The notes under the pieces are model-generated. The model did not search any database. It had not been told where the DNA came from and saw only the letters and a program-made list of their open reading frames with translations. Shown piece by piece: positions 2,721 to 35,051 of a DNA stretch of 64,000 nucleotides. Position 1 is the first letter of the stretch, and every line of letters starts with the position of its first letter. A program made the position numbers and the translations under genes. Source of the DNA: Nonomuraea sp. MG754425 (lineage in GTDB: Bacteria; Actinomycetota; Actinomycetes; Streptosporangiales; Streptosporangiaceae); contig NZ_SSXE01000034.1 of NCBI RefSeq assembly GCF_021699195.1, positions 1 to 64,000 of the forward strand. The letters run 5' to 3'.

Positions 2721-2736
2721 GTGCCGCCTCTTCTTC

Positions 2737-3249
2737 TCAGAGCGGGCCGGTCCTGGCCTGGGGGAAGTAACCCTTGTCGTGCGGGGCGTCGCGCCGGTAG
2801 ACCATGACGGTCCGCGTCCAGGACATGATCTCGTCGCCGTCCTGGTTGAGCCCGCGGGTGTAGCAGGTGACGATCCCGGCGTACGGGCGGGACCTGGACT
2901 CCCGTTTGGCGGTCACCTTCGACTCGGCGTAGAGCGTGTCGCCCACGAACACCGGGTGGCTGAGCTTGATCTGCTCCCAGCCCAGGTTCACGATCGCGGT
3001 CTGGCTGACGTCGATGACGGACAGCCCGAGCACGATGGCCACGCTCAGCCCGGAGTTGACGATGATCCTGCCGGTGGGCGAACTGGCGGCGAGGTGGGCG
3101 TTGAAGTGGTTCTGGTTCGTGTTCATGGTCAGGAGCGTGAACCAGGTGTTGTCCGTCTCGCTGATCGTGCGGCCCATGGGGTGCTGGTAGACGTCCCCGA
3201 CGGTGAAGTCCTCGTAGTAGCGGCCGATGGCGGGCTCGTGGACGGTCAC
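2737..3249 (-). CDS. MaoC-like enoyl-CoA hydratase
   Basis: 170-residue single hot-dog protein of the MaoC dehydratase family. It would hydrate or dehydrate an acyl-CoA in the cytoplasm. The core has the family segment TMNTNQNHFN with the conserved His; Asn stands where (R)-hydratases have Asp, as is common in this actinobacterial subgroup. The strands LGWEQIKLSHPVFVGDTLYAES are typical of MaoC. The start is GTG at 3249, chosen because AGGAG precedes it. It is the first gene of a two-gene unit with the acyl-CoA dehydrogenase. A 6-6-6 inverted repeat lies about 50 bp upstream. Confidence 0.88.
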   Translation of the reverse strand: MTVHEPAIGRYYEDFTVGDVYQHPMGRTISETDNTWFTLLTMNTNQNHFNAHLAASSPTGRIIVNSGLSVAIVLGLSVIDVSQTAIVNLGWEQIKLSHPVFVGDTLYAESKVTAKRESRSRPYAGIVTCYTRGLNQDGDEIMSWTRTVMVYRRDAPHDKGYFPQARTGPL

Positions 3250-3296
3250 GGGCTGCTCCTGTTCACACGATCAGGACGCCCACGTTAGTGACCAGA

Positions 3297-3314
3297 TGAT
3301 TGTTCGGTCAATCA
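3297..3314. promoter_or_regulatory. Inverted repeat upstream of the MaoC/acyl-CoA dehydrogenase operon
   Basis: TGATTG-TTCGGT-CAATCA is a perfect 18-bp inverted repeat 48 bp upstream of the MaoC start, overlapping the stop codon of the ACT gene. Read on the minus strand it contains TTGACCGAACAATCA, which resembles TetR-family operators found at fatty acid degradation operons. That match is from memory and no regulator gene is adjacent. Confidence 0.45.
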
Positions 3315-3929
3315 CCTCGCGCGCGTGGCCAGTTTCGCGACCACGTCCACGATGCGGGCGGCCCGCTCGACCTCGGCGCGGTGGAAGACCGGCCCGTCCG
3401 CGCGGGCGACGACCACGTGCAGCCCGGCCGTCACGACGGGCAGCAGCATCAGCCGCACCTCCTTGGCCTCCACGGTGATGGCCCGCGGCGGCTGCTCGGG
3501 CAGGTCGAAGCCGGCGGGCAGCGCCTCGGGCGCGGCCAGCGAGGCGTGCCGCACCGCGCCGTCGGCCACCGCCATCGACCACTCCGCGCCGCACAGCGCG
3601 GGCAGGGCGTCCACGAGCGTGGCGTAGCCCCTGGACGGCTCGGAGGCGACGTGCATGAGCAGGTCGTAGTCGGGGGCCGAGCCGGGCACGTCCTTGGTGG
3701 CCCACGCCCCTTCGACCCGTACGCCGGGCATGGCGGACAGCCGCTCGCGCGCCTCGGCCGCGCTCACCGGGCCCGGCCAGGAGACGGTGAAGTCGTCCAC
3801 GGCCCGGCCGGCCTCGCGTTCGAGCACGATGACCTGCAGGATGTCCGCTCCCAGTGCGCCCAGCGCCTTGGCGACCTGGCCGAGACCGCCCGGCCGGTCG
3901 GGCAACGACACCCTCAGTCGCAGCAGCAT
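3312..3929 (-). CDS. ACT-domain protein of unknown function
   Basis: About 205 residues. The first 70 residues form an ACT domain (MLLRLRVSLPDRPGGLGQVAKALGALGADI), the small-molecule sensing fold of amino acid metabolism. The rest resembles a degenerate GAF-like or second regulatory domain (LPALCGAEWSMAVADGAVRHAS) and shows no catalytic motif. The start at 3929 is preferred over an in-frame upstream codon at 3956 because GGAGAGGAGG sits just before it. It lies 62 bp upstream of the MaoC gene on the same strand, separated from it by the inverted repeat. Ligand and role are not readable. Confidence 0.8.
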   Translation of the reverse strand: MLLRLRVSLPDRPGGLGQVAKALGALGADILQVIVLEREAGRAVDDFTVSWPGPVSAAEARERLSAMPGVRVEGAWATKDVPGSAPDYDLLMHVASEPSRGYATLVDALPALCGAEWSMAVADGAVRHASLAAPEALPAGFDLPEQPPRAITVEAKEVRLMLLPVVTAGLHVVVARADGPVFHRAEVERAARIVDVVAKLATRAR

Positions 3930-4089
3930 TTCCGCCTCCTCTCCAGAGGCTCCCACAGTGCCGTGAAATGGTTTCGAGCTTGTTCCACGGACATGTCGCG
4001 CATGCTGCGCTTATATCCCAAAATGCAGTGTTAAGTCCGGATTGTCGATAAAGGGACGTCGACGGTTCTCCACCGGCCCGCCCACGCAC

Positions 4090-4119
4090 CCGGCCCCGGC
4101 CGTGAAGGGCCGGGGCCGG
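4090..4119 (-). terminator. Rho-independent-type hairpin after the P450 gene
   Basis: Twelve-base-pair perfect GC stem (4090-4101 with 4108-4119) and a 6-nt loop, placed 45 bp beyond the P450 stop codon. There is no clear U-run, as is usual in high-GC actinomycetes. Confidence 0.65.
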
Positions 4120-4163
4120 AGGACGGACGGCCCGCCGGCACCAGGCGAGCCGGCGGATGATCG

Positions 4164-7100
4164 TCAGGCGAAGACGTCCTGCTGGTAGCGGCCCTCCGCC
4201 TCCAGCCCGGCCAGCCACCCCGCGCCGTCCGCGCCGGTCCTGGCCAGGTGGATGTCCAGCAGGGCCTGCCGTACCGCGGGCGCCATCCGCAGCCCGTCAC
4301 CGCAGACGTACACGTGGGCGCCCTGCCCGAGCAGCTCCCACACCTCGTCCGCGTGGGCCGCGACGGCGTCCTGGACGAACCGGTGCGGATGCCCCGCCAC
4401 GGCCGAGTACGCGCGGTGCACCCGCACCTCCCCCGCCGTCTCCCAGGAGGCCAGTTCACCGGCGTAGAGCAGGTCGTGCTCGGGATGGCGGCACCCGGTG
4501 AACACCTCGGCCCGCCCGCTCGCCCCGCTCAGCGCCCGCTCCTCCAGGAAGCCGCGCAGCGGGGCGAAGCCGGTGCCGGGGCCGACGAGGATCACCGGCG
4601 TGGCCGGGTCCTCCGGCAGCCGGAACGGCGGCGCGGGCACCCGGATGTAGCCGTAGAACACCTCGCCCTCCTTGAGCCCCGCCAGGTACGCCGAGCACAT
4701 GCCCTGGTAGGTGCCGCTGCCCGACCAGGCGGGCCCCTCGACCAGGCCGACCGTCAGCCGCACCAGGCCGGGGTCGGCCAGCGGCGAGGAGGAGACGGAG
4801 TAGTAGCGCGGCTTGATCGGCCCGGCCATCTCCAGGAACGCCGCCAGTGGCAGCTCGATCGCCGGGAAGCGCTCCAGCAGCGCGAGCGGGGAGAGACGCT
4901 TGGCGAGGATCTCGTCGGCGTAGTCCGCGGTCATCCCGGCGAGCCGGCCCTTGGTCCACGGGCAGGCCGTGTGCGCGGCCAGCGCCTCCAGGTCGGCGCG
5001 GGTGGCCACCTCCTGCAACTCGGCGAACTCGGTCAGCAGCAGCCCGGCCGTGACCGGCGTGTCCACGGGCAGGTGGGTCGCGCCGGCCGCGCGCAGCCGG
5101 ACGACCTGCTCCCGGGGCACGCGCAGGCAGCGCAGCGCCCACTCCACCAGCTCCGGGTCGTTCTTGGCGAAGACGGCCACGTGGTCGCCCGCCGAATACG
5201 TCACGCCCTCGGGCAGCCTGGCCACGATGGAGCGCGCGCCGGGCCGGGGCGCCTCCAGCGAGAAGTCCCAGAGCCCCTCGGGGTCGCCGGTCAGCTCCTC
5301 GGTGGAGACCACGGTCAGCGGGAAGGCCCGCGCGGACACCACCGACGGCCGCACCTCGGCCTCGCTGAGCACCTCCATCTCGTAGCGGGGCCCGGCGTCG
5401 TCCGCCGTGGCGCTGTACTCCTCGGCCAGCGCCGCCCACAGCCGGCCGGTCCACGTGGACACGTCGCCGTCGAAGTCGCCGTCCGTGTCGGCCTCGCCCC
5501 GCTCGACGAGCGGGACGGCCCCCGCCGCCGTCAGCTTCTCGTACGCGCGCCGCGGGAAGTCCTGGTACGTCGGCCACTGCGTGTTGCCGCAGCCCAGCAC
5601 GGCCAGCCGCACCCCGGACAGGTCGGGCAGCGTCTCCAGGGCGTCGAAGCGCTGGGCGTTGTCCGGCGCCTTGCCGTTGTAGGAGGAGGCCACCACGACG
5701 AGCAGCCCCTCGGCGGGCGGCGTCAGCCCGTCGAGCGTGCTCAGCGTGACGGCCAACCCGGCCCGCCCGGCCCGCTCGGCCAGCCGTTCGGCGATGTCGG
5801 CGCTGGTGCCGAGGTTGGAGCCGTAGGCGACGGTGAGCGGCACGCCGGTCACCGCGATGTCCTGCTGCTCGTCGTCCGGCTCGGGGGCCGCGACGGCCGT
5901 GGTCCGCTCGTGGGCACGGCGCTCGCGCACCCGCAGCGTGAAGCCGTCCGGCTTGAGGGTGAGCGTCTGCTTGATCTTCATCCGGTAGACGTTCGGGTCG
6001 GACAGGGCGAAGCGCCGCAGGATCAGCGCCAGTGCCAGCCTGGCCTCGGTGAGCGCGAACTGCCGGCCGATGCAGGCCCGCTCGCCGTTGCCGAACGGCT
6101 TGTACGCGCCGGGGTGCCGGCCCTGCCGGTGCTCGGGCAGCCAGCGGTCGATGTCGAACTCGTCCGGCCGCTCCCATGCCTTGGCGCTGCGGTGCAGCGG
6201 GGGCAGCAGCACGCCGACGCCCTGGCCGGCCGGGATGGGGTAGTCGCCGAGCATGGTGTCCTGGACGGCGCTCACCCCGAACAGCGGGATCGGCGACCAG
6301 AACCGCAGCGTCTCCTCCAGGATGCGCGGGATGACGTCCAGCTTCATGATCGTCTCGTACGACGGCGGCTCGTCGCCCGGCAGCAGCCGGTCCACCTCGT
6401 CGTAGGCGCGGGCCAGGATGTGCGGCTCGCGCAGCAGGTTGTACAGGGCGAAGGAGAGCAGGCCGCTGGTGGTCTCGTGGCCGGCGATCAGGAAGGTGAG
6501 CACCTGGTTGCGGATGTTCTCGTCCGACAGCCGGGCGCCGCTGCGCGGGTCGGACGCCTCCAGCATGAGCCCCAGCAGGTCCTTCGGGCCGGTGCCGCCC
6601 TCGGAGCGGCGCTGCTTGACCACCTCGTCCACGAGGGCCTGCATGGTCGCGATGTCGCGCCGGTAGCTCTCCTCGTTCTTCTTCTTGAGCCTGGTGACGA
6701 ACGGGAGCTGCTGGTTGCGGTGCATGGCCTCGGTCAGCGCACCGCCCATGGCCACCAGGAACGGGTGCAACTCGGGCGATTCAAAGGAGTTGAAGCGGTA
6801 GCCGAACCCGGTGAGGGAGATCGTGTCGAGGGTGAGCCGGGTCATGTCGTCGGCGACGGGCAGGTCCTCCCCCTGGCGGCCCGCCCACGACTCGACGAGC
6901 TGCTCGGCGACCTCAAGGAACTGCGGGTAGTACGCCTTCATCGAGCGCTGGCTGAAGGCCGGCATCAGGATGCGGTGCGCGTGGCCCCACACCGGCTCGC
7001 CGTGGTCGGCGGTGAACAGGCCGTCTCCGCTGAAGTCGCGCACGATCGACAGCGGCGGCCTGATCCGTTTGACGAACCGGCTCTCGTCGCACGCCTGGGC

Positions 7101-7274
7101 GACCAGGTCGGGGTCGTAGACGAGCACCACGCGGCGGCCGGCGATCTCAAGCTGGAAGATGCCCTCGTCGTACTGGGAGGCGACCTTGACGAAGTGCTCC
7201 ACCGGGGCGTGCGCGGGAATCTGCAGCGTGTTGCCCACGATCGGCAGGCCCTGCGGGGTGGGGATCCGAGCCAT
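4164..7274 (-). CDS. Self-sufficient cytochrome P450:NADPH-P450 reductase (CYP102/BM3 type)
   Basis: 1036-residue fusion, close to the 1049 residues of P450-BM3. It would hydroxylate fatty acids or similar substrates with its own electron supply. The haem domain (about 1-450) has the I-helix AGHETTSG, the EXXR region (EETLRFWSP) and the haem loop FGNGERACIGRQF with ligand Cys401. A flavodoxin-like FMN domain follows (TVAYGSNLGTSADIAERLA). Next comes the FAD/NADPH reductase part with RYYSVSSSP, VGPGTGFAPLRGF and a C-terminal YVCGDGLRMAP. The start is preceded by GGAAGGGAG. A TetR gene lies divergently, with a double palindrome between the two. In Bacillus BM3 systems a TetR-family repressor (BM3R1) responds to fatty acids, and the same logic is likely here. 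Confidence 0.96.
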   Translation of the reverse strand: MARIPTPQGLPIVGNTLQIPAHAPVEHFVKVASQYDEGIFQLEIAGRRVVLVYDPDLVAQACDESRFVKRIRPPLSIVRDFSGDGLFTADHGEPVWGHAHRILMPAFSQRSMKAYYPQFLEVAEQLVESWAGRQGEDLPVADDMTRLTLDTISLTGFGYRFNSFESPELHPFLVAMGGALTEAMHRNQQLPFVTRLKKKNEESYRRDIATMQALVDEVVKQRRSEGGTGPKDLLGLMLEASDPRSGARLSDENIRNQVLTFLIAGHETTSGLLSFALYNLLREPHILARAYDEVDRLLPGDEPPSYETIMKLDVIPRILEETLRFWSPIPLFGVSAVQDTMLGDYPIPAGQGVGVLLPPLHRSAKAWERPDEFDIDRWLPEHRQGRHPGAYKPFGNGERACIGRQFALTEARLALALILRRFALSDPNVYRMKIKQTLTLKPDGFTLRVRERRAHERTTAVAAPEPDDEQQDIAVTGVPLTVAYGSNLGTSADIAERLAERAGRAGLAVTLSTLDGLTPPAEGLLVVVASSYNGKAPDNAQRFDALETLPDLSGVRLAVLGCGNTQWPTYQDFPRRAYEKLTAAGAVPLVERGEADTDGDFDGDVSTWTGRLWAALAEEYSATADDAGPRYEMEVLSEAEVRPSVVSARAFPLTVVSTEELTGDPEGLWDFSLEAPRPGARSIVARLPEGVTYSAGDHVAVFAKNDPELVEWALRCLRVPREQVVRLRAAGATHLPVDTPVTAGLLLTEFAELQEVATRADLEALAAHTACPWTKGRLAGMTADYADEILAKRLSPLALLERFPAIELPLAAFLEMAGPIKPRYYSVSSSPLADPGLVRLTVGLVEGPAWSGSGTYQGMCSAYLAGLKEGEVFYGYIRVPAPPFRLPEDPATPVILVGPGTGFAPLRGFLEERALSGASGRAEVFTGCRHPEHDLLYAGELASWETAGEVRVHRAYSAVAGHPHRFVQDAVAAHADEVWELLGQGAHVYVCGDGLRMAPAVRQALLDIHLARTGADGAGWLAGLEAEGRYQQDVFA

Positions 7275-7292
7275 CTGTGCTCCCTTCCATAG

Positions 7293-7331
7293 CCATACAC
7301 CGTATGGCTGACGCTACCATACGGTGTATGG
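7293..7331. promoter_or_regulatory. Double palindromic TetR operator between P450 and tetR
   Basis: Two 15-bp palindromes, CCATACACCGTATGG (7293-7307) and CCATACGGTGTATGG (7317-7331), are separated by 9 bp. Each has perfect 6-bp arms, and the second is the exact reverse complement of the first, so the whole forms one large inverted repeat. The right copy covers the start codon of tetR and the left lies 19 bp upstream of the P450 start. A repressor bound here would shut off both genes. Confidence 0.85.
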
Positions 7332-7891
7332 CCGTGAGCGCGCGCAGGGGCGCACCCCTGACCCTCGAAGAGATCAGCACCACCGCCCTCCGTCTGATGG
7401 ACGAGGGCGGCGTCGAGGGGCTGTCCATGCGCAAGCTGGCGGCCGAGCTGGACGTCAACCCGATGTCGCTCTACCACCACGTGGAGAGCAAGGACGCGCT
7501 GGTCAGGCTCATCTGCTCCACGGCCGCGCAGCGCATGGACCTGCCGCCGGACGACGGCTCGCCCTGGCAGGACCAGCTACGCGCGCTGGCGCTCGGCTAC
7601 TACCGCAACGCGCTGGCCCATCCGGCCATGTGGAGCCACCTGCACAACCACCCCGAGATCATCGCGGACCGCAACCTGGTGATCTGGCAGGCCCTCTACC
7701 GCATCCTGCGCCTGGCCGGAGTGCCGGAGCCGGAGCAGCGGCGCACGAGCGACGTGCTGCACGCGTTCGTGATGGGCTACGTCATCGCCGGGACGAAGGG
7801 CCACCTTCCGGGCGACCCGGAGGAGATCGAGCGCGGCTTCGACACCGCGATCCGGCTCATCACGGGCGGGCTGGCGGGGTGGAGCCGCTGA
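7328..7891 (+). CDS. TetR/AcrR-family repressor, probable regulator of the P450
   Basis: 187 residues from the ATG at 7328. The N-terminal helix-turn-helix (about residues 15-60) contains STTALRLMDEGGVEGLSMRKLAAELDVNPMSLYHHV, with the YHHV segment typical of TetR recognition helices. The C-terminal part is all-helical and matches the TetR_C type with PAMWSHLHNHPEI. Earlier in-frame starts would place the N-terminus across the operator and the P450 ribosome binding site, so 7328 is preferred. The start codon lies inside the right palindrome, implying autoregulation. The ligand is unknown; fatty acids or P450 substrates are the obvious candidates. Confidence 0.9.
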   Translation: MAVSARRGAPLTLEEISTTALRLMDEGGVEGLSMRKLAAELDVNPMSLYHHVESKDALVRLICSTAAQRMDLPPDDGSPWQDQLRALALGYYRNALAHPAMWSHLHNHPEIIADRNLVIWQALYRILRLAGVPEPEQRRTSDVLHAFVMGYVIAGTKGHLPGDPEEIERGFDTAIRLITGGLAGWSR

Positions 7892-24906: not shown

Positions 24907-24959
24907 CTGACCGCCCCCGCGCACCGGTGGCACGGGGGCGGCGGGAGCGGGGCGGTCAG
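24907..24959. terminator. Bidirectional terminator structure between convergent genes
   Basis: Perfect 11-bp outer stem (24907-24917 with 24949-24959) and an alternative inner 9-bp stem (24911-24919 with 24933-24941). It fills the whole gap between the methyltransferase stop and the dctA stop, so it can serve both strands. Confidence 0.65.
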
Positions 24960-26296
24960 GCGGGTGACATCTCCTTGGCCTGCTCGCGCGGCCCGTCCTC
25001 CCCGTCCGTGTCGTCGTCCTCGTCGAGCAGCCTGGCCTCGTCGAACGGCGCCTGCCCGGCCAGCACCCGCTCGGCCCGGTCCCGGTCGAACTCCCCGGTC
25101 CAGGTGCCCACGAGCACGGTGGCGACGGCGTTGCCGGCGAAGTTGGTCAGCGCCCGCGCCTCCGACATGAACCGGTCGATGCCCACGATGAGGCCGACCC
25201 CGTCCACCAGCTCGGGCCGGTGCGCCTGCAGGCCGCCGGCGAGCGTGGCCAGGCCCGCCCCGGTGACGCCGGCGGCGCCCTTCGAGGCGACCATCATGAA
25301 CAGCAGCAGCGCGACCTGCTCGCCGAACTCCAGCGGCGACCCGGTGGCCGTGGCGATGAACAGCGTGGCCATGGTCAGGTAGATGGCGGTGCCGTCGAGG
25401 TTGAAGGAGTAGCCGGTCGGCACGGTGATGCCGGCCACGGTCTTGCTCACGCCCAGGTGCTCCATCTTCGCGATGAGCCGGGGCAGGGCCGTCTCCGACG
25501 ACGACGTGGACAGGATGAGCAGGAACTCCCTGCCGAGGTAGCGCAGCAGCGACCACAGGTTGATCCGGGCCACCAGCCACAGGATCGTGCCGAGCACCAC
25601 GCCGACGAACAGCAGGCACGTCACGTAGAAGGCGATCATGATGATGGCCAGGCTCTTGAGCGCCTCGATGCCGGTGGCGCCCACGACGGCGGCGATCGCG
25701 CCGAACGCGCCCACCGGCGCCGCCCACATGATCATGGCGAGGATGCGGAACACGAGCCGCTGGAAGTGCTCCACGCCCCGCAGGATCGGCGCGCCCTTGG
25801 CCCCCATGGCCTGCAGCGCGAAGCCGGCGAGCAGCGCGACCAGCAGCGCCTGGAGCACCGAGCCGTCGGTGAGCGCCGAGACCACCGTCTTGGGGATGAT
25901 GCCGAGCAGGAAGTCGACCGTGCTGGCCTCCGCGACCTTGGCCGCCTCGGCCTCGGCGGCCTCCTTGGCGGTCTCGGTGAGTTGCAGGCCCGAGCCCGGG
26001 TCGATGACGTTGCCCACGGCCAGGCCGATGATCAGGGCGACCGTGGACATGGCGATGAAGTAGCCGAGGGCGAGCCCGCCGACCTTGCCGACCTGGGCGG
26101 CCTGGCGTACGGAGCCGATGCCGAGCACGATCGTGCAGAAGATGATCGGGCCGATCACCATCTGGATCAGCGCGACGAAGCCGGTGCCGAGGGGTTTGAG
26201 CTCTCTGCCCAGGTCGGGCCAGATGAAGCCGACCAGGATCCCGAACAGGACCGCCACGATGACGGCCAGATAGAGGTAGCGGGTGCGATCACGCAT
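24956..26296 (-). CDS. dctA: C4-dicarboxylate (DAACS family) symporter DctA
   Basis: 446 residues from ATG 26296 (GGAGAA upstream). Secondary transporter of the glutamate/dicarboxylate:cation family, importing succinate, malate or fumarate. Family signatures are intact: the re-entrant loop HP1 serine motif STSSSETALPRL, TVPTGYSFNLDGTAIY in helix 7, and the second loop MVASKGAAGVTGAG, followed by GIDRFMSEARALTNFAGNAVAT. The C-terminal tail is acidic (DEDDDTDGEDG). It is divergent from a DcuS/DcuR-type two-component pair that would induce it in response to dicarboxylates. Confidence 0.95.
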   Translation of the reverse strand: MRDRTRYLYLAVIVAVLFGILVGFIWPDLGRELKPLGTGFVALIQMVIGPIIFCTIVLGIGSVRQAAQVGKVGGLALGYFIAMSTVALIIGLAVGNVIDPGSGLQLTETAKEAAEAEAAKVAEASTVDFLLGIIPKTVVSALTDGSVLQALLVALLAGFALQAMGAKGAPILRGVEHFQRLVFRILAMIMWAAPVGAFGAIAAVVGATGIEALKSLAIIMIAFYVTCLLFVGVVLGTILWLVARINLWSLLRYLGREFLLILSTSSSETALPRLIAKMEHLGVSKTVAGITVPTGYSFNLDGTAIYLTMATLFIATATGSPLEFGEQVALLLFMMVASKGAAGVTGAGLATLAGGLQAHRPELVDGVGLIVGIDRFMSEARALTNFAGNAVATVLVGTWTGEFDRDRAERVLAGQAPFDEARLLDEDDDTDGEDGPREQAKEMSPA

Positions 26297-26401
26297 AGGG
26301 GGGTTCTCCGGCGGTTTGAGTGACCTTCTCGTTGTGCGACTATGCGGGTCAGAGTGATGCAGGTCACCATTGCGTAAGTTTCGTACATGAAAGGAACCCG
26401 G

Positions 26402-27931
26402 ATGCGGGGCTGGAGCCTGGCGGGCCAGATGCTGGTGCTGCAGTTGCTCGTGGTCGCCGTCACCGCGACGGGCGGCGCGACGCTCGCCCTGGTGCAGGCG
26501 CACGAGCTGCTCACAGAGGAGGCGGGGGCCACGGCCACCGCCGCGGCCGTGGCGGTGGCCGCCTCGCCGGACGTGCTGGAGGCGCTCGGCGAGCCGGACC
26601 CGACCGCGCGGCTGCAGCCGTACGCGCAGCGGGTGCGCGTGGCGACGGGGGTCGACTTCATCACCATCATGAAGCCGGACGGCACCCGCTACACCCATCC
26701 GAACGAGTCCGAGATCGGCCGGCGCTTCCTCGGCCACATCGAGCGGGCGCTGCGCGGCGAGACGTTCACGGAGACCTACACCGGCACGCTCGGCGCGTCG
26801 AAGCGGGCGGTGACGCCGGTCATGGCCGGCGGGCGGGTGCGGGCGCTGGTCAGCGCCGGGATCACGATCGACCGGATCAGCGCCAGGCTGCGCGACCAGC
26901 TCGCCTGGGGCGGCCTCATCGTGGCGCTGGCGCTCGGCCTGGGCGCGGCCGGCACCTGGCTGGTCACCGTACGGCTGCGCCGCCAGACGCACGGCCTGGG
27001 CCCGGTCGAGCTGGGCCGCATCCACGAGCACCACGACGCGGTCCTGCACGCCGTCAGGGAGGGCCTGCTGCTGGTCGGCCGGGAGGGCACGCTGACGCTG
27101 TGCAACGACGCGGCCCGGCTGCTGCTGGACCTGCCCGCCGACGCCGAGGGGCGGCACGTGCGGGAGCTGGGCCTGGCCGAGGTGCTGGCCGACGACGAGG
27201 AGCGCATCCACCTGGTGGGCGACCGGGTGCTGGCCGTCAACAGCGCCGTCAGCAGGCTCGGCACGGTCGTCACCGTCCGCGACCACACCGAGTTGCAGGC
27301 GCTGAGCGGCCAGCTCGACGCGGAGCGCGGCTTCGCCGAGACGCTGCGCTCGGCGGCGCACGAGGCGGCCAACCGGCTGCACACGGTGATCACGCTGGTG
27401 GAGCTGGGCCGCACCGAGCAGGCGGTGGCGCTGGGCACGGCCGAGTTGCGGGCCGCGCAGGAGCTGACCGACCGGGTGGTGGGCGCGGTGCGCGAGCCGG
27501 TGCTGGCGGCGCTGCTGCTGGGCAAGAGCGCCGAGGCGGCCGAGCGCGGCGCGGAGCTGGTGATCAGCGACGACAGCGAGCTGGACGATCTGGGCCTGGA
27601 CGCCCGCGAGCTGGTCACGATCCTGGGGAACCTGATCGACAACGCGATCGACGCGGCCTCGCGGGTGGAGGTGCACCTGAGCGCGGACGAGCGGGGCGTG
27701 CTGCTCAGGGTGGCCGACGACGGCCCGGGGCTGGCCGACCGGGGCGCGTTCGAGAAGGGCTGGACCACCAAGGGCGACGGTCACGGGCTCGGGCTGGCGC
27801 TGGTGGGGCAGGCGGTGCGGCGGCTCGGCGGCACGATCGAGATGACGGGCCCGGAGAATGGCCCGGAGAAAGGGCCATCGTCAGGATCGGTGTTCACCGT
27901 GCGGCTGCCGGTTCCGGAGCACGTCCGATGA
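26402..27931 (+). CDS. DcuS/CitA-type sensor histidine kinase
   Basis: 509 residues from ATG 26402, chosen because AAGGA lies 6 bp before it; an upstream ATG (26387) lacks one. The order is membrane helix, external PDC/PAS-like domain (residues about 35-165, containing VDFITIMKPDGTRYTHPNESEIGRRF), second membrane helix, cytoplasmic PAS and kinase core. FITIMKPDGTRYTHP matches the ligand-contact stretch of CitA/DcuS sensors. The atypical H-box AAHEAANRLHTV fits this family. ATPase boxes are LIDNAIDAA and GHGLGLALVG. Its gene overlaps the response regulator by 4 nt and is divergent from dctA, so C4-dicarboxylates are the expected signal. Confidence 0.92.
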   Translation: MRGWSLAGQMLVLQLLVVAVTATGGATLALVQAHELLTEEAGATATAAAVAVAASPDVLEALGEPDPTARLQPYAQRVRVATGVDFITIMKPDGTRYTHPNESEIGRRFLGHIERALRGETFTETYTGTLGASKRAVTPVMAGGRVRALVSAGITIDRISARLRDQLAWGGLIVALALGLGAAGTWLVTVRLRRQTHGLGPVELGRIHEHHDAVLHAVREGLLLVGREGTLTLCNDAARLLLDLPADAEGRHVRELGLAEVLADDEERIHLVGDRVLAVNSAVSRLGTVVTVRDHTELQALSGQLDAERGFAETLRSAAHEAANRLHTVITLVELGRTEQAVALGTAELRAAQELTDRVVGAVREPVLAALLLGKSAEAAERGAELVISDDSELDDLGLDARELVTILGNLIDNAIDAASRVEVHLSADERGVLLRVADDGPGLADRGAFEKGWTTKGDGHGLGLALVGQAVRRLGGTIEMTGPENGPEKGPSSGSVFTVRLPVPEHVR

Positions 27932-28596
27932 CGTTCTCGGTGCTGGTGGTGGAGGACGAGGAGATCACCGCCGAGGCGAACCGCATCTACGTCGGGCGGG
28001 TGCCGGGCTTCGAGGTGGCCGGGGTGGCCAGGTCCGGCGCGCAGGCGCTGCGCTTCCTGCGCGGGCGGCCGGTGGACCTCGTCCTGCTCGACCTGTACCT
28101 GCCCGACATGCACGGCCTGGACGTGTGCCGGGCGGTGCGGGCGGGCGGCCTGATGTGCGACGTGATCGCGGTGACCTCGGCCCGCGATCTGGCCATGGTC
28201 CGGTCGGCGGTGTCGCTGGGGGTCTCCCAGTACCTGCTCAAGCCGTTCACCTTCGCGACACTGGCCGAGAAGCTGACGCGTTACGCCCGGTTCAAGGAGG
28301 AGGCGGGCCTGGCGGTCGGGCAGGGTGACGTGGATCGGGTGCTCGGCGCCCTGCGCGGCCCCTCGGAGCTGCCGAAAGGCATGGCCCGCGACACCCTGGA
28401 CACGGTGGCCGCGCGGTTGCGCGAGCGCCCGGAGGGAATGGCCGCGCAGGGGGTGGCGGACGCGATGGGGGTGTCCCGTGTGACCGCGCGCAGATACCTG
28501 GAGTACCTGGTGGAGCTGGGGGTCGCGGTCCGCCTGCCGCGCTACGGCGGAGTGGGCCGGCCAGAGTTGCTCTACCGGATCCCCATGGAAAGTTAA
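27928..28596 (+). CDS. DcuR/CitB-type response regulator
   Basis: 222 residues. The ATG overlaps the kinase stop (ATGA). The receiver domain (1-120) has the acidic pair ED at 9-10, phospho-acceptor Asp55 in LLDLYLPDMHG and the conserved Lys in YLLKPF. The C-terminal helix-turn-helix (GVADAMGVSRVTARRYLEYL) is the DcuR/CitB type. It should activate dctA, transcribed divergently from the kinase. A weak hairpin (28610-28626) follows the gene. Confidence 0.93.
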   Translation: MTFSVLVVEDEEITAEANRIYVGRVPGFEVAGVARSGAQALRFLRGRPVDLVLLDLYLPDMHGLDVCRAVRAGGLMCDVIAVTSARDLAMVRSAVSLGVSQYLLKPFTFATLAEKLTRYARFKEEAGLAVGQGDVDRVLGALRGPSELPKGMARDTLDTVAARLRERPEGMAAQGVADAMGVSRVTARRYLEYLVELGVAVRLPRYGGVGRPELLYRIPMES

Positions 28597-28668
28597 TGGC
28601 GGTGACGCTGGCCGTTCAATCCGGCCCTCTAGCTTCTGGGTGCAATCCGATGCACTGAGGAGACACAG

Positions 28669-30705
28669 TTGCGAGTCCTGGCCGTTGTTCCCGCCCGCGG
28701 AGGTTCAGCGGGCGTACCCCTGAAGAACCTCGCCCTGGTCGGGGGCGTTCCGTTGGTCACCCGGGCGGTGCGGGCCTGCCTGCGTGCCGAGCTGGTGGAC
28801 CAGGTCGTGGTCAGCACCGACCACGACGGGATCGCCGAGACCGCCAGGCAGGCGGGCGCGATCGTGGTCGAGCGCCCGGAGGAGCTGAGCGGCGCCACCG
28901 CCTCCAGCGAGTCCGCGGTGCTGCACGCGCTCGACGCCCTGGGCGCGGACCCCGAGATCGTCGTGCTGGTCCAGGCGACCAGCGCGTTCATCGACCCCGA
29001 TGACCTGTCGGCGGCGGTGCGCAAGGTGCTCGACGGCGAGGCCGACGCCGTGGTGTCGGGCCTGCCCACGCACGAGTTCCTCTGGACGGCCGGCGGCTCC
29101 GGCGTCAACCACGACCCGGCCGTCAGGCAGCGCCGCCAGGACCGCGCGCCGGAGTTCCGCGAGAACGGCGCGTTCTACGTCATGCGCACCGCGGGCCTGC
29201 GCGCGCACGGCCACCGCTTCTTCGGCGAGATCGCCGTCCAGCCGGTGCCCGTCAAGCACGCCATCGAGATCGACAACCCGGAGGACCTCGAGCTCGTGCG
29301 CGCCCTCGCCCCGTTCATCGACCTGCCTGAGCCGATCGACGTGGACGCGGTCATCACCGACTTCGACGGCGTGCACACCGACGACCGCGCCTACGTCGAC
29401 TCCGAGGGCCGCGAGATGGTGCTGGTCAGCCGCTCCGACGGGATGGGCGTCTCGCTGCTGCGGCGCTCCGGCGTCAAAGTGCTGATCATGTCCACCGAGC
29501 AGAACCCGGTGGTGGCCGCCCGCGCCCGCAAGCTCGGCGTGCCCGTGCTGCAGGGGCTGGCCGACAAGCGCACCGTGCTGCGCGACTGGCTGCGCATCGA
29601 GGGCCTCGACCCGGCCCGCGTGGCCTACGTCGGCAACGACGTCAACGACCTGGGCCCGATGGGCGAGGTCGGCTGGCCCGTCGCCACCCCCGACGCCCAC
29701 CCGCGGGTGCGGGCCGCCGCCCGCGTGGTGCTGACCAGCGCCGGCGGCAGCGGGGCGGTGCGCGAGCTGTGCGAGCGCGTGGTGGCCGCCCGTCCCGAGC
29801 CGGCCCCCGTGGAGGTGCGCGCGAGACCGCGGTTCGGGCCGGTGGCGATCGGTGACGTGCCGGTCGGCGACGGCGAGCCGGTGTACGTCATCGGCGAGAT
29901 CGGCATCAACCACAACGGCGACATCGACCTGGCCAGGCAGCTCATCGACGTGGCGGCCGAGGCCGGCTGCCAGGCGGTGAAGTTCCAGAAGCGCACGCCC
30001 GCGATCTGCGTGCCGGAGGAGCAGAAGGGCCAGATCCGCCAGACGCCGTGGGGCGAGATGACGTACCTGGAGTACAAGGAGCGCACCGAGTTCGGCCGCG
30101 ACGAGTACACGCAGATCGCGAAGTACTGCGACGAGCGCGGGCTGCACTGGTTCGCCTCCCCGTGGGACGTGCCGTCGGTGGAGTTCCTGGAGGAGATGGA
30201 CGTCCTGGTGCACAAGGTGGCCTCGGCCAGCGTGGCCGACCACGAACTGCTGCGTGCCCTGGCCGCCACCGGCAAGCCGCTGATCCTCTCGACCGGCATG
30301 TCCACGCTGCCGGAGATCGACGCGGCCGTCGAGATCCTCGGCACCGAGAAGCTGATCATGATGCACGCCACGTCCACGTACCCGCTGCCGCCCGAGGAGG
30401 CGAACCTGCGGACGATCACCGCGCTCAAGGAGCGCTACGGCGTCCCCGTCGGCTACTCGGGCCACGAGCGCGGGCTGCAGATCTCGCTGGCCGCGGTCAC
30501 GCTCGGCGCGGTCTGCGTGGAGCGGCACATCACCCTCGACCGCACCATGTGGGGCTCCGACCACGCCGCCTCGCTGGAGCCGTCCGGGCTGGAGCACCTC
30601 GTCCGCGACATCCGCATCATCGAGCAGGCGCTGGGTGACGGCGTCAAGCGGGTCTTCCCCGGTGAGGAGGCTCCGAAGGCCCGCCTGCGCCGGGTGACCG
30701 TCTGA
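28669..30705 (+). CDS. Trifunctional nonulosonate enzyme: NeuA-like + HAD phosphatase + NeuB-like
   Basis: 678 residues with TTG start after GAGGAG (6-bp spacing). Residues 1-222 form a CMP-acylneuraminate cytidylyltransferase-like domain (VVPARGGSAGVPLKN). The P-loop-like motif has Ala14 where relatives have Lys (RGGSKG). Residues about 224-390 form a KdsC-like HAD phosphatase with Asp231/Asp233 in TDFDGVHTDD and the VGNDVNDLGPM motif. Residues about 402-678 form a NeuB barrel (YVIGEIGINHNGD, AVKFQKR, ILSTGMS, GYSGHERG) that stops before the C-terminal SAF/antifreeze-like domain of usual NeuB. By family knowledge the order of reactions would be condensation with PEP, dephosphorylation, then CMP activation. 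It heads an operon of glycosyltransferases. Confidence 0.9.
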   Translation: MRVLAVVPARGGSAGVPLKNLALVGGVPLVTRAVRACLRAELVDQVVVSTDHDGIAETARQAGAIVVERPEELSGATASSESAVLHALDALGADPEIVVLVQATSAFIDPDDLSAAVRKVLDGEADAVVSGLPTHEFLWTAGGSGVNHDPAVRQRRQDRAPEFRENGAFYVMRTAGLRAHGHRFFGEIAVQPVPVKHAIEIDNPEDLELVRALAPFIDLPEPIDVDAVITDFDGVHTDDRAYVDSEGREMVLVSRSDGMGVSLLRRSGVKVLIMSTEQNPVVAARARKLGVPVLQGLADKRTVLRDWLRIEGLDPARVAYVGNDVNDLGPMGEVGWPVATPDAHPRVRAAARVVLTSAGGSGAVRELCERVVAARPEPAPVEVRARPRFGPVAIGDVPVGDGEPVYVIGEIGINHNGDIDLARQLIDVAAEAGCQAVKFQKRTPAICVPEEQKGQIRQTPWGEMTYLEYKERTEFGRDEYTQIAKYCDERGLHWFASPWDVPSVEFLEEMDVLVHKVASASVADHELLRALAATGKPLILSTGMSTLPEIDAAVEILGTEKLIMMHATSTYPLPPEEANLRTITALKERYGVPVGYSGHERGLQISLAAVTLGAVCVERHITLDRTMWGSDHAASLEPSGLEHLVRDIRIIEQALGDGVKRVFPGEEAPKARLRRVTV

Positions 30706-30732: not shown

Positions 30733-31713
30733 TTGATCACACTCTCGGTCGTGGTGCCCATCCGGGACGGCGAGCGGTTCATCGCCGACGCGCTCACCTC
30801 CCTGGCGCGCAACCGGCGCGACGACTTCGAGTTCATCGTCGTGAACGACGGGTCCGTGGACGCCACGGGCGCGATCATCGATGACTTCATCGGTGAGCTG
30901 CCCGGCCTGGTCGTGGTGCGCAACCCCGCCCCGCTGGGGCTGGCGGACGCGCGCAACACGGGCCTGTCAATCGCGACCGGCCGGTACGTCACGTACATGG
31001 ACGGCGACGACTGGCTCGCCCCCGGCTACCTGGCCCGGCTCGTCGAGGTGATCGACGGGCTCGGCTGCGACTTCGTGCGCGTGGACCACGTGCAGGCCGA
31101 GGGCCGCAAGCGGGTCGTGCACCGCGCTCCGCAGGCGCGGCGGGGCGTGGTGCTCGACCCTCGTGAGGCCATCCTGCCGGCCGGGGTGCGCACCATGGTG
31201 GACTACCCGTACGCCTGGGCCGGCGTCTACCGGCGTTCCCTGGGCGACCTGCTGCACTTCCCCGGCTCCCTGCACACGGCCGAGGACCGGCCGTGGATCT
31301 GGCGGCTGCACCGGGAGGCCGCCACGTTCGCGGTGGCGTCGCTGGCGGGGGTGTTCTACCGGCGCATGGTGCCGGGGTCGCTCACGCAGGTGGGCGACGA
31401 GCGCCAACTGCACTTCTTCGACGCGTTCGAGCTGGTCTTCAAGGACCTGGAACCGGAGTTCCTGCCGAAGGCCACGCGGAACTTCTGCGCACTGCTCGCC
31501 CACCATCTGGAGATCGGCGACCGGCTCACGCCGGAGTTGCGGGCCCGCTTCGGGGAGCGCGGCGCGCAGATGGTGCGGGCGCTGCCGCCGGAGCTGGTGA
31601 CCGACTCGGTGTCGCGGATGTCCGTCGAACGCGCGGCCGTCCTGCGGGCCCTGGTGCCCGACCTGCCCCCCAGCCCGCACGTCCGGGTCCGCCGCGACCG
31701 GGAGGAGTCCTGA
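30733..31713 (+). CDS. Family 2 glycosyltransferase
   Basis: 326 residues, TTG start preceded by AGGAAG. GT-A fold: ITLSVVVPIRDGERFIADAL, VNDGSVDATGAI and the DxD-type motif YMDGDDWLAPGYL for metal-nucleotide sugar binding. LHTAEDRPWIWRLH looks like the acceptor/catalytic base region. The C-terminal 100 residues are helical and resemble the acceptor part of wall-polymer transferases. It lies 27 bp after the trifunctional enzyme and 2 bp before the polysialyltransferase-like gene, so it should work on the same polymer. Donor and acceptor are unknown; a linkage-unit or alternating-sugar transferase is plausible. Confidence 0.9.
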   Translation: MITLSVVVPIRDGERFIADALTSLARNRRDDFEFIVVNDGSVDATGAIIDDFIGELPGLVVVRNPAPLGLADARNTGLSIATGRYVTYMDGDDWLAPGYLARLVEVIDGLGCDFVRVDHVQAEGRKRVVHRAPQARRGVVLDPREAILPAGVRTMVDYPYAWAGVYRRSLGDLLHFPGSLHTAEDRPWIWRLHREAATFAVASLAGVFYRRMVPGSLTQVGDERQLHFFDAFELVFKDLEPEFLPKATRNFCALLAHHLEIGDRLTPELRARFGERGAQMVRALPPELVTDSVSRMSVERAAVLRALVPDLPPSPHVRVRRDREES

Positions 31714-31715
31714 AG

Positions 31716-32960
31716 GTGAAGGTCTTCTACGCCTCGACGTTGTTCGGGGCGATGTCACTGGCCGCCGCCATCGACGACGGGCGGTTCGGCGACGGCCGCC
31801 GCGTCCTGATCGTCTCCAACAACGCGGCCATCCCCGAGGTGGCGGTGCCGCTGGACCGGACGCCCGGCTTCACCGTGCTGCGCTCGCGCTTCGACGAGGT
31901 GCGCTCGTGGAACGAGCTGATCGCGCCGCTGCACCCCTCCGACTGGCGGGCCCGCGTCATCGAGGTGCCGATGACCGAGCGCCTCATCCGCTCCCACTGG
32001 GGGCTGGACGAGGTCGAGGAGCTGGTGCTGGAGTCGATCGCGGTGCCGCCCGCGCGCACGATCGCGGGCCTGGTGCGCGACTGCCCGATCTCCGTCTACT
32101 CCGACGGGCTGATGAGCTACGGCCCGACCCGCGACCCGCTGCCGGCCGAGATCTTCCGTCGCATCGACCGGCTGCTCCACCTGGACCTCGTGCCGGGCCT
32201 GAAGCCGCTGCTGCTCAGCGAGTACGGCGTCGCCCCCGAGATCCTGCCGGACGAGCGGTTCCTGTCGGTCGTGCACGAGGTCACCGCCACCGCCCCCGAC
32301 ATGATGGCCGGGCAGGCGATGATCCTCGGCCAGTACCTGTCGGCGCTGGAGCTGCTCACGCCCGAGGAGGAGGCCGGGCTGCACGAGAGCATGCTCAGGG
32401 CGCTGGCGGCGCGCGGCTGCACCGACGTCGTCTTCAAGCCGCATCCGGCCGCCGGCCGCCGGCACGCCCAGCTCCTGCGCGCCGCCGCCGGTGACCTGGG
32501 CGTGCGGCTGTCGGTGGCCGGGGAGAGCGTGCCGGCCGAGGTGTGCTTCGCGGCGCTGCGTCCCGAGCTGGTGGTGGGCTGCTTCTCCACGGGGCTGGTC
32601 ACCGCGCGGCGCTACTTCGGGCTCCAGGTGGCCTCGTACGGCACGGACGTGGTGCTGGAGCGGCTGGCCCCGTACGAGAACAGCAACCGGATCCCCGTCA
32701 CCGTCGTGGACGCGATGTTGCCCAAGCTGTCCCCCGAGGGGCACATCGAGCGCCCGCCGGTCACCGACCTGCAGGCGCTGGTGCGCGCGGTCGGCTACTG
32801 CATGCAGGCCGACGCCTACCCCGACCTGCGGCCGGAGCACATCGAGCACGACCCGCGCTACTTCAAGCGCAAGCGCCTGGAGACGCTGGGCTTCGTCACG
32901 GAGGCCGACAAGCCCGGCGCCCTGGCCAGGATCCGCAGGAAGATCAGGTCAGCGATCTGA
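31716..32960 (+). CDS. Polysialyltransferase-family glycosyltransferase
   Basis: 414 residues from GTG 31716; GGAGGAG lies 8 bp upstream. The three short motifs of bacterial sialyl- and polysialyltransferases (GT38/GT52/GT80) are present in order: the D/E-D/E-G-type site at Asp130-Gly131 (YSDGLMSYG), the HP motif at His243-Pro244 (VFKPHPAAGRRH) and the Ser/Thr site at Ser291-Thr292 (CFSTGL). In those enzymes they bind the CMP donor. The N-terminal FYASTLFGAMSLAAAIDDG resembles the PF07388 family. The protein is expected to polymerise the CMP-nonulosonate made by the first gene. Its 3' end overlaps the convergent gene by 17 bp. Confidence 0.88.
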   Translation: MKVFYASTLFGAMSLAAAIDDGRFGDGRRVLIVSNNAAIPEVAVPLDRTPGFTVLRSRFDEVRSWNELIAPLHPSDWRARVIEVPMTERLIRSHWGLDEVEELVLESIAVPPARTIAGLVRDCPISVYSDGLMSYGPTRDPLPAEIFRRIDRLLHLDLVPGLKPLLLSEYGVAPEILPDERFLSVVHEVTATAPDMMAGQAMILGQYLSALELLTPEEEAGLHESMLRALAARGCTDVVFKPHPAAGRRHAQLLRAAAGDLGVRLSVAGESVPAEVCFAALRPELVVGCFSTGLVTARRYFGLQVASYGTDVVLERLAPYENSNRIPVTVVDAMLPKLSPEGHIERPPVTDLQALVRAVGYCMQADAYPDLRPEHIEHDPRYFKRKRLETLGFVTEADKPGALARIRRKIRSAI

Positions 32961-34110
32961 GGTAGCGGCGCATGCGGCGCTTGGCCCGGTAGCCCACCCG
33001 CAACATCTTGGGCGGCACCTCCACCCGGAGGCGGGCCCGGCGCCGCGCGGACGCGAACTCCGGCCCGTCGAGCAGCGACCTGGCGGGCGTCCGCGGCCGG
33101 GCGATCACCAGCCCGGCCAGCAGCCCCGTCCAGTCGTTGCGCTCGGCCGGCTGGAAGTAGTTGGCCGCGCACCAGTGCGCGGAGGCGGCGCGGAAGTCGC
33201 CGTCGGCCAGCTCCTCCATGGTGCCCAGCAGGTCGCTGCCCTCGAACACCAGGTTGATCATCTCGGCGCTGACGCCGAAGTCGCGCAGCACGAGCGACGG
33301 CACGCCCATCGCGACGGCCTCCAGCGCGGCCGTCGAGCTCACGGTCACGAACCCGGCCGCCTGCCGGAGCTGGTCCTGCATCGACCCGGCCGCGAACGTC
33401 AGCCGGCCCGGCTCCCCCATCTCCCGCCACAGCCGCTGGTAGTGGAAGCGCTCGTTGTGCGTCTGCCGCTCGTCCTCCAGCGCGCGCAGCTTGACCACGA
33501 CGTCGAGGTCGGGACGGCGTCCGGCCAGTTCGGCCAGCGCGCGCAGGATGCGCTCGCGCTCCTCCCGGCCCTTCGGCACCTTGGCCTGGGTGGCGAACAC
33601 GACCCGGTCGCCGCCCTGGGCGGTCAGGTCGGGCCGCAGGAACGGCAGCCGGGCCAGGCCCACCGCCCCGCCCCCGCCGAGCCTGGCGGCGATCTCGGAG
33701 AACTCCGCCACCTCCCGCTCGCTGTGCAGCACGAACAGGTCGCAGCCGCTGCGGAACACCCACGCCTTCTCCGTCGCCGGCACCGAGATGCCCGGCAGCC
33801 CGCTGACGAACACCGGCCGCGGGCGCAGCCCGGTCAGCACCTCGGCCACCAGGACGTCCACCACGGGGCCGGTGCAGGCCACGAGGATCACGTCAGGACG
33901 GGTGCGCTCGGCCAGCCGCCGCACCGAGCGGGCGCTCAGCACCGGCGGAGGCTGCGCGCCGCCCACGGCGGCGGCGATCTGCTCCTGCGAGGGGGCGATC
34001 GGCGTGCGCACCACGACCAGCTCGGTCACGCAGCCCGCGGGCAGGTCACCGAGCAGGCAGGCCGCCCACTTCAGATATGAGTCGGAGTCGGCGACCGCCA
34101 ACACTCTCAC
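32944..34110 (-). CDS. DUF6716-like putative GT-B glycosyltransferase
   Basis: 388 residues from GTG 34110, overlapping the upstream stop by 4 nt (GTGA). It begins VRVLAVADSDSYLKWAACLL and has a GT-B-like layout: an N-terminal Rossmann half ending near VFVSGLPGISVPATEKA and a C-terminal half with VVFATQAKVPKGREERERIL and a donor-site-like stretch VTVSSTAALEAVAMGVPSLV. The HP motif of sialyltransferases is not seen. The name DUF6716 is from memory of similar proteins next to polysialyltransferases in actinomycetes. It is translationally coupled to the preceding gene and faces the nonulosonate operon tail to tail. Confidence 0.75.
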   Translation of the reverse strand: MRVLAVADSDSYLKWAACLLGDLPAGCVTELVVVRTPIAPSQEQIAAAVGGAQPPPVLSARSVRRLAERTRPDVILVACTGPVVDVLVAEVLTGLRPRPVFVSGLPGISVPATEKAWVFRSGCDLFVLHSEREVAEFSEIAARLGGGGAVGLARLPFLRPDLTAQGGDRVVFATQAKVPKGREERERILRALAELAGRRPDLDVVVKLRALEDERQTHNERFHYQRLWREMGEPGRLTFAAGSMQDQLRQAAGFVTVSSTAALEAVAMGVPSLVLRDFGVSAEMINLVFEGSDLLGTMEELADGDFRAASAHWCAANYFQPAERNDWTGLLAGLVIARPRTPARSLLDGPEFASARRRARLRVEVPPKMLRVGYRAKRRMRRYLRSLT

Positions 34111-35051
34111 CCGGACACTCCAGTCAAATGCGATCGCAGGGCGGGGGCCGCCCTGCTGGTCCACCAGTCATCGGGAACGTCCACGGGCTCGACGGCGACA
34201 CCGCGCGGGCTGAGCAGCACCCGCAGCGAGGTGATCGCGGTCGAGGGGAGGCTGAGCACGCGCTGGCCGGCGTCGAGGCCGCGCAGCGTCAGCTCGGCGG
34301 GCACGCCCGCGTCGTGCACGGTGATGCCGGGGCGCTCCCGGATCAGGGCGACGTCCACGGGGTCCTCGCGGCGGTGCGGATAGTAGGCGAGGGGCTCGCG
34401 CGCGGCCAGGTCGGTCAGCCAGCGCAGGTAGCGCTCGCGGTGCACGAGGCCGTTGCGCACGAGGGAGGTGCCGAGCACGACCGTGCGCTCGGCCGGGCCC
34501 TGGCTGCTGGGCGGCTGGGCGCGCAGCCAGGCGAACTCGTGGTGGACGAGATCGACTCCGGCCCGGCGGACGTCCGCCGCGAGCTGTTCGTCCACGGTCA
34601 GGGCGGTGAAGACGGAGACTTTGCTCAGGCGCAGCCGCAGCGCCGCCGCCAGGCCCAGGGCGGAGCGCGGCCCGGTGGGCCGGGCGCGGGCGCGCAGCAG
34701 CGGCCGGAACGGTCCGGCGGCGAGCAGTTCGAGCAGCCGCAGCGTGGCCAGCCCGTCGTCCACGATGACGATGTGGCCGGGCCTGGAGGTGAGCCAGCGG
34801 AGCTGCACCTTGCCGGAGAAGGCGTCCCCGACGGCCTGTACCCGCCTGGGCATCCGATCGCGCGGCTCGGCCAGCACCAGCCCGTCGGGCAGGCCCAGCG
34901 AGCGCAGCTCGCGCCGGGTGGCCTTCAGCGGACGCAGGCCCGCGCGCGGCACGACGACCGTCTCGGGGCCGAGCAGCCCGGCGTGGTGGGCCTCGACGGC
35001 GCACAGCATCTGGAGGGGGGACTCCACCCAGGCCGACGCCTGTTCGACCAC
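34107..35051 (-). CDS. Putative sialyltransferase-like protein (GT52-like motifs)
   Basis: 314 residues. No family name is certain. The motif order resembles GT52 sialyltransferases: Asp98-Asp99-Gly100 in HIVIVDDGLATL, then YYPHRRED (Pro225-His226-Arg227) where others have an HP motif, then Ser270-Thr271 in LSLPSTAITSL. The N-terminal SAWVESPLQMLCAVEAHHAG also resembles the start of such enzymes (ESPLQ). It is the first gene of a two-gene unit with the DUF6716-like protein. A role as a second nonulosonate transferase, for example priming the chain, is inference from motifs and neighbours. Confidence 0.7.
   Translation of the reverse strand: MVEQASAWVESPLQMLCAVEAHHAGLLGPETVVVPRAGLRPLKATRRELRSLGLPDGLVLAEPRDRMPRRVQAVGDAFSGKVQLRWLTSRPGHIVIVDDGLATLRLLELLAAGPFRPLLRARARPTGPRSALGLAAALRLRLSKVSVFTALTVDEQLAADVRRAGVDLVHHEFAWLRAQPPSSQGPAERTVVLGTSLVRNGLVHRERYLRWLTDLAAREPLAYYPHRREDPVDVALIRERPGITVHDAGVPAELTLRGLDAGQRVLSLPSTAITSLRVLLSPRGVAVEPVDVPDDWWTSRAAPALRSHLTGVSG

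Follow-up and report, generated by a model that had tools for sequence, protein, structure and literature searches.

Nonomuraea sp. MG754425 carries a gene in which a CMP-nonulosonate synthetase-like (NeuA-like) domain, a KdsC-like HAD phosphatase domain and a NeuB-like barrel are joined in a single chain of 678 amino acids. We consider it likely that the product is a single-chain CMP-Kdn synthase, which converts mannose-6-phosphate (Man-6-P), PEP and CTP to CMP-Kdn, feeds a Kdn wall polymer and was born by the loss of a stop codon. The gene lies in a stretch of 64,000 nucleotides (contig NZ_SSXE01000034.1), which is called the window here. In the proposed mechanism, the C-terminal barrel would form Kdn-9-phosphate from Man-6-P and PEP, the central HAD domain would remove the phosphate and the N-terminal domain would convert Kdn and CTP to CMP-Kdn; the adjacent GT2, polysialyltransferase-like and DUF6716 proteins would then use CMP-Kdn for a Kdn-containing wall polymer of the teichulosonic acid type. 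The pathway is a known one and it is the architecture that is unusual; we do not regard it as a new kind of system. A more far-reaching version, in which the full CMP-Kdn pathway in one polypeptide was fused at least twice, the tether keeps each intermediate close to the active site that follows (a form of channelling) and the SAF-less barrel is specific for Man-6-P, is put forward only tentatively, as a possibility that we rather doubt.

The frame is uninterrupted, and the coordinates and strand given by the initial annotation proved exact (Table 1). Over the whole length of the gene, dN/dS between the window and seven relatives is 0.16-0.30. All 25 Nonomuraea genomes searched, its own included, gave a full-length match, and none of the 16 genomes outside the genus in the same set did; in 24 of the 25 it is one uninterrupted match, while G022 has two matches within a 709-aa frame, and the N. 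gerenzanensis copy is 94.7% identical. An assembly or frame error was rejected because all 25 Nonomuraea genomes and, among the matches listed, 70 of 70 named Streptosporangiaceae loci have the fusion. An internal NeuB start was also looked for in residues 366-411 of the window and rejected for want of a candidate, as in-frame ATG and TTG codons are absent from this region and its seven in-frame GTG codons all lack a Shine-Dalgarno-like string.

Table 1. Features of the fusion gene and of the genes beside it (window positions)
Feature	Position	Strand	Basis
Fused NeuA-HAD-NeuB gene, 678 aa, TTG start	28669..30705	+	frame, domains, orthologues
Shine-Dalgarno-like AGGAG, ends 6 bases 5' of TTG start	28658..28662	+	
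CMP-nonulosonate synthetase (NeuA-like) domain, residues 1-215	28669..29313	+	PF02348; best solved relative 9t4z
HAD phosphatase domain, residues 219-375	29323..29793	+	KdsC-type models; best solved relative 3mmz
Variable linker, residues 376-390	29794..29838	+	mean identity 30%
NeuB-type barrel without SAF, residues 391-678	29839..30702	+	PF03102, no PF08666; 6ncs and 1xuu alignments
GT2 glycosyltransferase, next gene	30733..31713	+	PF00535
Polysialyltransferase-like protein, meets GT2 stop, start approximate	31713..32960	+	PF07388, 2.3e-25
DUF6716 putative glycosyltransferase, convergent	32944..34164	-	PF20471, 1.6e-130
Conserved protein without Pfam match, strand as DUF6716	34107..35051	-	conservation across loci

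The three domains that the initial annotation had named are recovered by Pfam, by NCBIfam (under the curated cut-offs) and by PDB sequence matches. In Pfam, CTP_transf_3 matches residues 5-151 above its cut-off (4.4e-22) and NeuB matches residues 425-660 (7.4e-83), and the HAD part barely reaches the cut-off (PF00702, 26.4 bits). KdsC-type HAD models cover residues ~225-375; TIGR01670 (1.4e-26) scores 93.3 bits, below its curated cut-off of 106.95, and NF058599, the model of KDN-9-P phosphatase (2.3e-25), scores 89.6 bits, below its equivalog cut-off of 180. No part of the fusion protein reaches a curated NCBIfam cut-off. Each of the 40 PDB sequence matches has its best stretch within a single part of the protein, with 9t4z and 1qwj in residues 2-210, 3mmz in 219-372 and 6ncs in 392-660, and the closest solved cytidylyltransferase, 9t4z, is the CMP-Kdn synthetase PpNeuA. 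A C-terminal SAF (antifreeze-like) domain, a feature of NeuB/NANS synthases, was not found by Pfam in the fusion protein at E 0.001, unlike in the PseI of the same genome, which has one. The AlphaFold model of the fusion (mean pLDDT 74.9, pTM 0.42) is too weak for the domains to be placed relative to each other, and the 50 Foldseek matches listed out of 1932 have single-domain alignment lengths, except for 3nvt_A and 3tfc_A with 375-382 columns, which at an rmsd of ~18 Å are uninformative.

The residues expected in three working active sites were followed in an alignment of 46 fusions, made of the copy in the window, 44 named fused loci (of 74) and L149. In the NeuA domain R10, K19, N20, Q102, R156 and D202 are invariant in all 46, as are the motif residues G11, S13, Q157, E165, G167 and F169; the ARGGS...KN loop and the RRQ...E.G.FY string are, we assume, the motifs of CMP-nonulosonate synthetases. 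In the barrel E410, K438, K516, S541, H599, H620 and D631 align to E25, K53, K129, S154, H215, H236 and D247 of 1xuu and do not vary in any of the 46, so that the metal and PEP residues expected of a NeuB synthase are in place. One departure counts against the proposal, as the position of 1xuu E134 is occupied by Ser (41 fusions), Gly (3) or Cys (2). Equally constant in the HAD domain are D231, D233, S275, E277, K288, K300, D324 and D327, which includes the pair of catalytic Asp residues pointed out in the initial annotation. We take the barrel residues aligned to 1xuu, R10, K19, N20, Q102, R156 and D202 of NeuA and D231, D233, S275, K300, D324 and D327 of HAD to be catalytic. Mean identity to the window among the 46 fusions is 76% for NeuA, 82% for HAD and 86% for NeuB, and 30% for the linker.

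The HAD domain deserves a closer look, since it could be a non-catalytic oligomerisation module, as it is in animal CMAS, with the phosphate removed by another phosphatase or the substrate not phosphorylated at all, so that the protein would be bifunctional. Of the features of KdsC-type (C0) HAD phosphatases, the DxD motif I and motifs II and III are present (D231, D233, S275, K300), whereas motif IV, GDD..D, reads GNDVND at window positions 29632-29649. In all 46 fusions Asn323 takes the usual place of the first Asp of motif IV; the KdsC-type chains compared have Asp there, the Streptomyces avermitilis chain 3mmz has the same GNDVND-type Asn, and this substitution speaks for a module without activity. 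Yet D231, D233, S275, K300, D324 and D327 are kept in every aligned fusion and seven comparisons give a dN/dS of 0.14-0.38 for the HAD part, so we consider a non-catalytic HAD domain unlikely and a working phosphatase probable. Its substrate may be reflected in E277 and K288, which correspond to residues 56 and 67 of 3e81, a Bacteroides chain, provided that the matched stretch is ungapped thus far; these two residues presumably decide KDN-9-P specificity, and the literature searched yielded no text on their role. The KdsC-type chains 3n1u, 3mn1 and 4um5 carry A or R at the first of these positions and Q, S or E at the second.

The identity of the sugar is suggested by the genome and by related genera. 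It might be argued that the same trifunctional enzyme makes CMP-Neu5Ac from ManNAc-6-P, as its best NCBIfam match, though under the cut-off, is TIGR03569 (N-acetylneuraminate synthase) and the animal synthase accepts both hexose phosphates, Man-6-P and ManNAc-6-P. However, the genome has no match to NanE, and its NeuC-like protein is a WecB above the WecB cut-off, with a NeuC match under the NeuC one. The barrel also has no SAF domain, which in the Neisseria enzyme contributes Arg314 to bind the N-acetyl group. Finally, Kdn polymers are reported from related genera: the teichulosonic acid of S. coelicolor contains Kdn (excerpts of PMC7831098 and PMC11481543) and a Kdn polymer is reported from the wall of Promicromonospora citrea (excerpt of PMC6801904), and four loci of other Promicromonospora carry split orthologues. 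A CMP-Neu5Ac product is accordingly quite improbable. In the literature searched there was no report of Kdn in the walls of Streptosporangiaceae. A phosphomannose isomerase in the genome is a source of Man-6-P, and this, together with the missing NanE match, the WecB assignment and the Kdn of related genera, points to the phosphorylated Kdn-type route that the initial annotation had favored.

A third reading is that the fusion makes CMP-pseudaminic or CMP-legionaminic acid. With the PseI and PseF models it scores 214 and 97 bits, under their cut-offs, and its Azospirillum relatives adjoin leg genes. In Azospirillum a NeuB (50% identical) and a NeuA-HAD pair are divergent from LegB, LegC and neuC genes, and therefore relatives of the fusion may serve other sugars; a fused Azospirillum version was considered and rejected, as the two are annotated as separate genes. 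Against this reading, a second nonulosonic acid cluster is present on contig C629 (locus L167, ~2378-7882), with PseB and PseI above and PseC, PseG and PseH under the NCBIfam cut-offs, and no NCBIfam model matched its cytidylyltransferase-like frame at 1e-20. From these gene matches the organism probably makes pseudaminic acid too, by separate enzymes. Moreover, none of the scanned neighbors of the fusion matched a Pse or Leg gene, and the pseudaminic and legionaminic acid routes are not known to need a phosphatase. We judge this reading to be highly improbable. The initial annotation had set separate neuA, neuB and phosphatase genes elsewhere in the genome against a trifunctional enzyme; tblastn with the whole protein did not bear this out, as it found this gene and only one other NeuB, which is the PseI of the C629 cluster. 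A third, partial NeuB-family match lies at G000:C33:4411-4758 (28.8 bits, over the Pfam cut-off).

With CMP-Kdn as the probable product, the neighboring genes suggest where it may go. The fusion gene heads a block of GT2, polysialyltransferase-like and DUF6716 genes. Among the matches listed, 69 of 70 named Streptosporangiaceae loci have the GT2 gene, in 66 of these 69 at most 400 bases from the fusion, and 69 of 70 have the polysialyltransferase-like gene. Of these loci, 64 fused ones extend at least 6.5 kb downstream; all 64 have the GT2 and polysialyltransferase-like genes, 54 have DUF6716 and 51 the Pfam-less protein. GT2 was not seen within the 1.5 kb of flank covered in the fused loci L036, L038, L052 and L148. 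The upstream sensor kinase (24 of 70 Streptosporangiaceae loci among the matches listed) and regulator (26 of 70) lie outside the core of the block. At 24956-28596 of the window, a by-eye reading gives a dicarboxylate-symporter-like frame on the minus strand beside the sCache sensor kinase and a DpiA-like regulator.

For the S. coelicolor teichulosonic acid cluster, Ostash 2014 is reportedly the work cited. This cluster, SCO4873-SCO4882 (excerpt of PMC13011467), is the inferred counterpart of the window cluster, based on product names and on a Planobispora rosea table rather than on alignment (excerpt of PMC8269224); it differs in that genus g87, probably Streptomyces, keeps NeuA-HAD and NeuB as two genes. 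Among the genes that the same table gives as Pho-activated are the P. rosea matches of SCO4877-4880 and SCO4882, one of which is named sialic acid synthase (excerpt of PMC8269224), and the Planobispora takensis locus (L102) is fused. As for a PHO box upstream, a crude pattern of TTCA at 11-bp spacing was present in only 1 of 80 loci among the matches listed and absent from 79.

The fusion is not confined to Nonomuraea. In an even draw of 120 genomes across the family, the full-length match is free of stops in 38 and holds a single stop in 6; in 15 others the matches are divided, partial or distant, and 61 have no match. The 80 named loci, which are the best matches among those listed, comprise 74 fused loci (Streptosporangiaceae 70/70, Cellulomonas 2/2, Isoptericola 2/2) and 6 split ones (Promicromonospora 4/4, Nocardiopsidaceae 2/2), although choosing best matches favors close, uninterrupted copies and split forms are therefore under-sampled. 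Among the 160 loci that passed the filters (of 174), 135 are fused and 25 split, and NeuA and HAD share one frame in all 160.

Split relatives keep the gene order, NeuA-HAD and then NeuB with a short spacer; in Thermobifida and some others the two share a frame and are parted by a stop, and in the class-wide search genus g87 has them as two adjacent genes. The likely origin is that an ancestral neuA-HAD gene lost the stop codon that set it apart from the downstream neuB and the intergenic spacer became the linker, often rich in Ala and Pro; the two-gene order is observed in the relatives, and the change would have run from split to fused. The linkers of fused loci are 14 to 47 residues long and many are Ala/Pro-rich. 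In a quick tree of 82 rows, 52 fusions of Streptosporangiaceae and kin form one clade (SH-aLRT 99), and five fusions of the Cellulomonas and Isoptericola type are placed elsewhere with split Promicromonospora among them. A single clade of all 57 fusions against 23 split rows (long rows L164 and L169 left out) is rejected with p-AU 2e-5, and therefore there were two or more fusions, or a fusion and a later fission, alternatives that the tree does not tell apart.

Internal starts were scanned in 23 relatives, of which 17 have the anchor motif, 13 of them Streptosporangiaceae. Among these 13, a Shine-Dalgarno-like string accompanies a GTG in L097, L110 and L122, and L090, L097 and L105 have an ATG that lacks such a string. 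An ATG with a Shine-Dalgarno-like string precedes NeuB in the linkers of Isoptericola and Cellulomonas alba. It does so in L132, L138, L139 and L149, and here both fused and free NeuB might be made. On a plasmid of the alphaproteobacterium Sinorhizobium fredii (L164, ~4001-7123), NeuB, NeuA-HAD and a DUF6716 homologue (29% identity) are consecutive, a row that is perhaps an old module; the NeuB stop touches the NeuA start, and a fused version was rejected since the stop directly precedes the NeuA ATG.

The known systems nearest to the fusion differ from it in distinct ways. Animal CMAS is a CMP-sialate synthetase with a C-terminal HAD domain and so shares the order NeuA, then KdsC-type HAD, in one chain; however, it has no NeuB domain, and its HAD is not known to have the catalytic Asp or phosphatase activity, while the fusion keeps D231 and D233. 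A Leptospira protein has NeuB fused to a phosphatase-like domain, for which its authors propose an animal-like phosphorylated route, but NeuB comes first, the excerpt names no NeuA and the C-terminal domain is described as an endonuclease homologue (excerpt of PMC3438082). The Kdn pathways of Bacteroides and Prymnesium follow the same steps, Man-6-P to Kdn-9-P to Kdn to CMP-Kdn, but with separate enzymes, the Prymnesium phosphatase being given as not identified (excerpt of PMC6200933). The precedents in the literature searched have two domains only, the Leptospira fusion being the nearest as far as its excerpt goes, and no description of a three-domain NeuA-HAD-NeuB protein was found there (subscription papers were mostly outside its scope and an earlier mention is possible). 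Of the initial annotation, the domains and the pathway logic hold, as does the Kdn-type route by inference, and the missing SAF domain, the Asn of motif IV, the spread of the fusion and the wall-polymer neighbors, none of which it mentioned, are to be added.

As relatives have split and fused versions, the effect of the fusion is directly testable. If active, the protein would lead from mannose-6-phosphate to an activated sialic-type sugar in a single enzyme, which glycan synthesis could make use of, and it would put a name to the enzyme that supplies Kdn for the wall polymers of an antibiotic-producing family.
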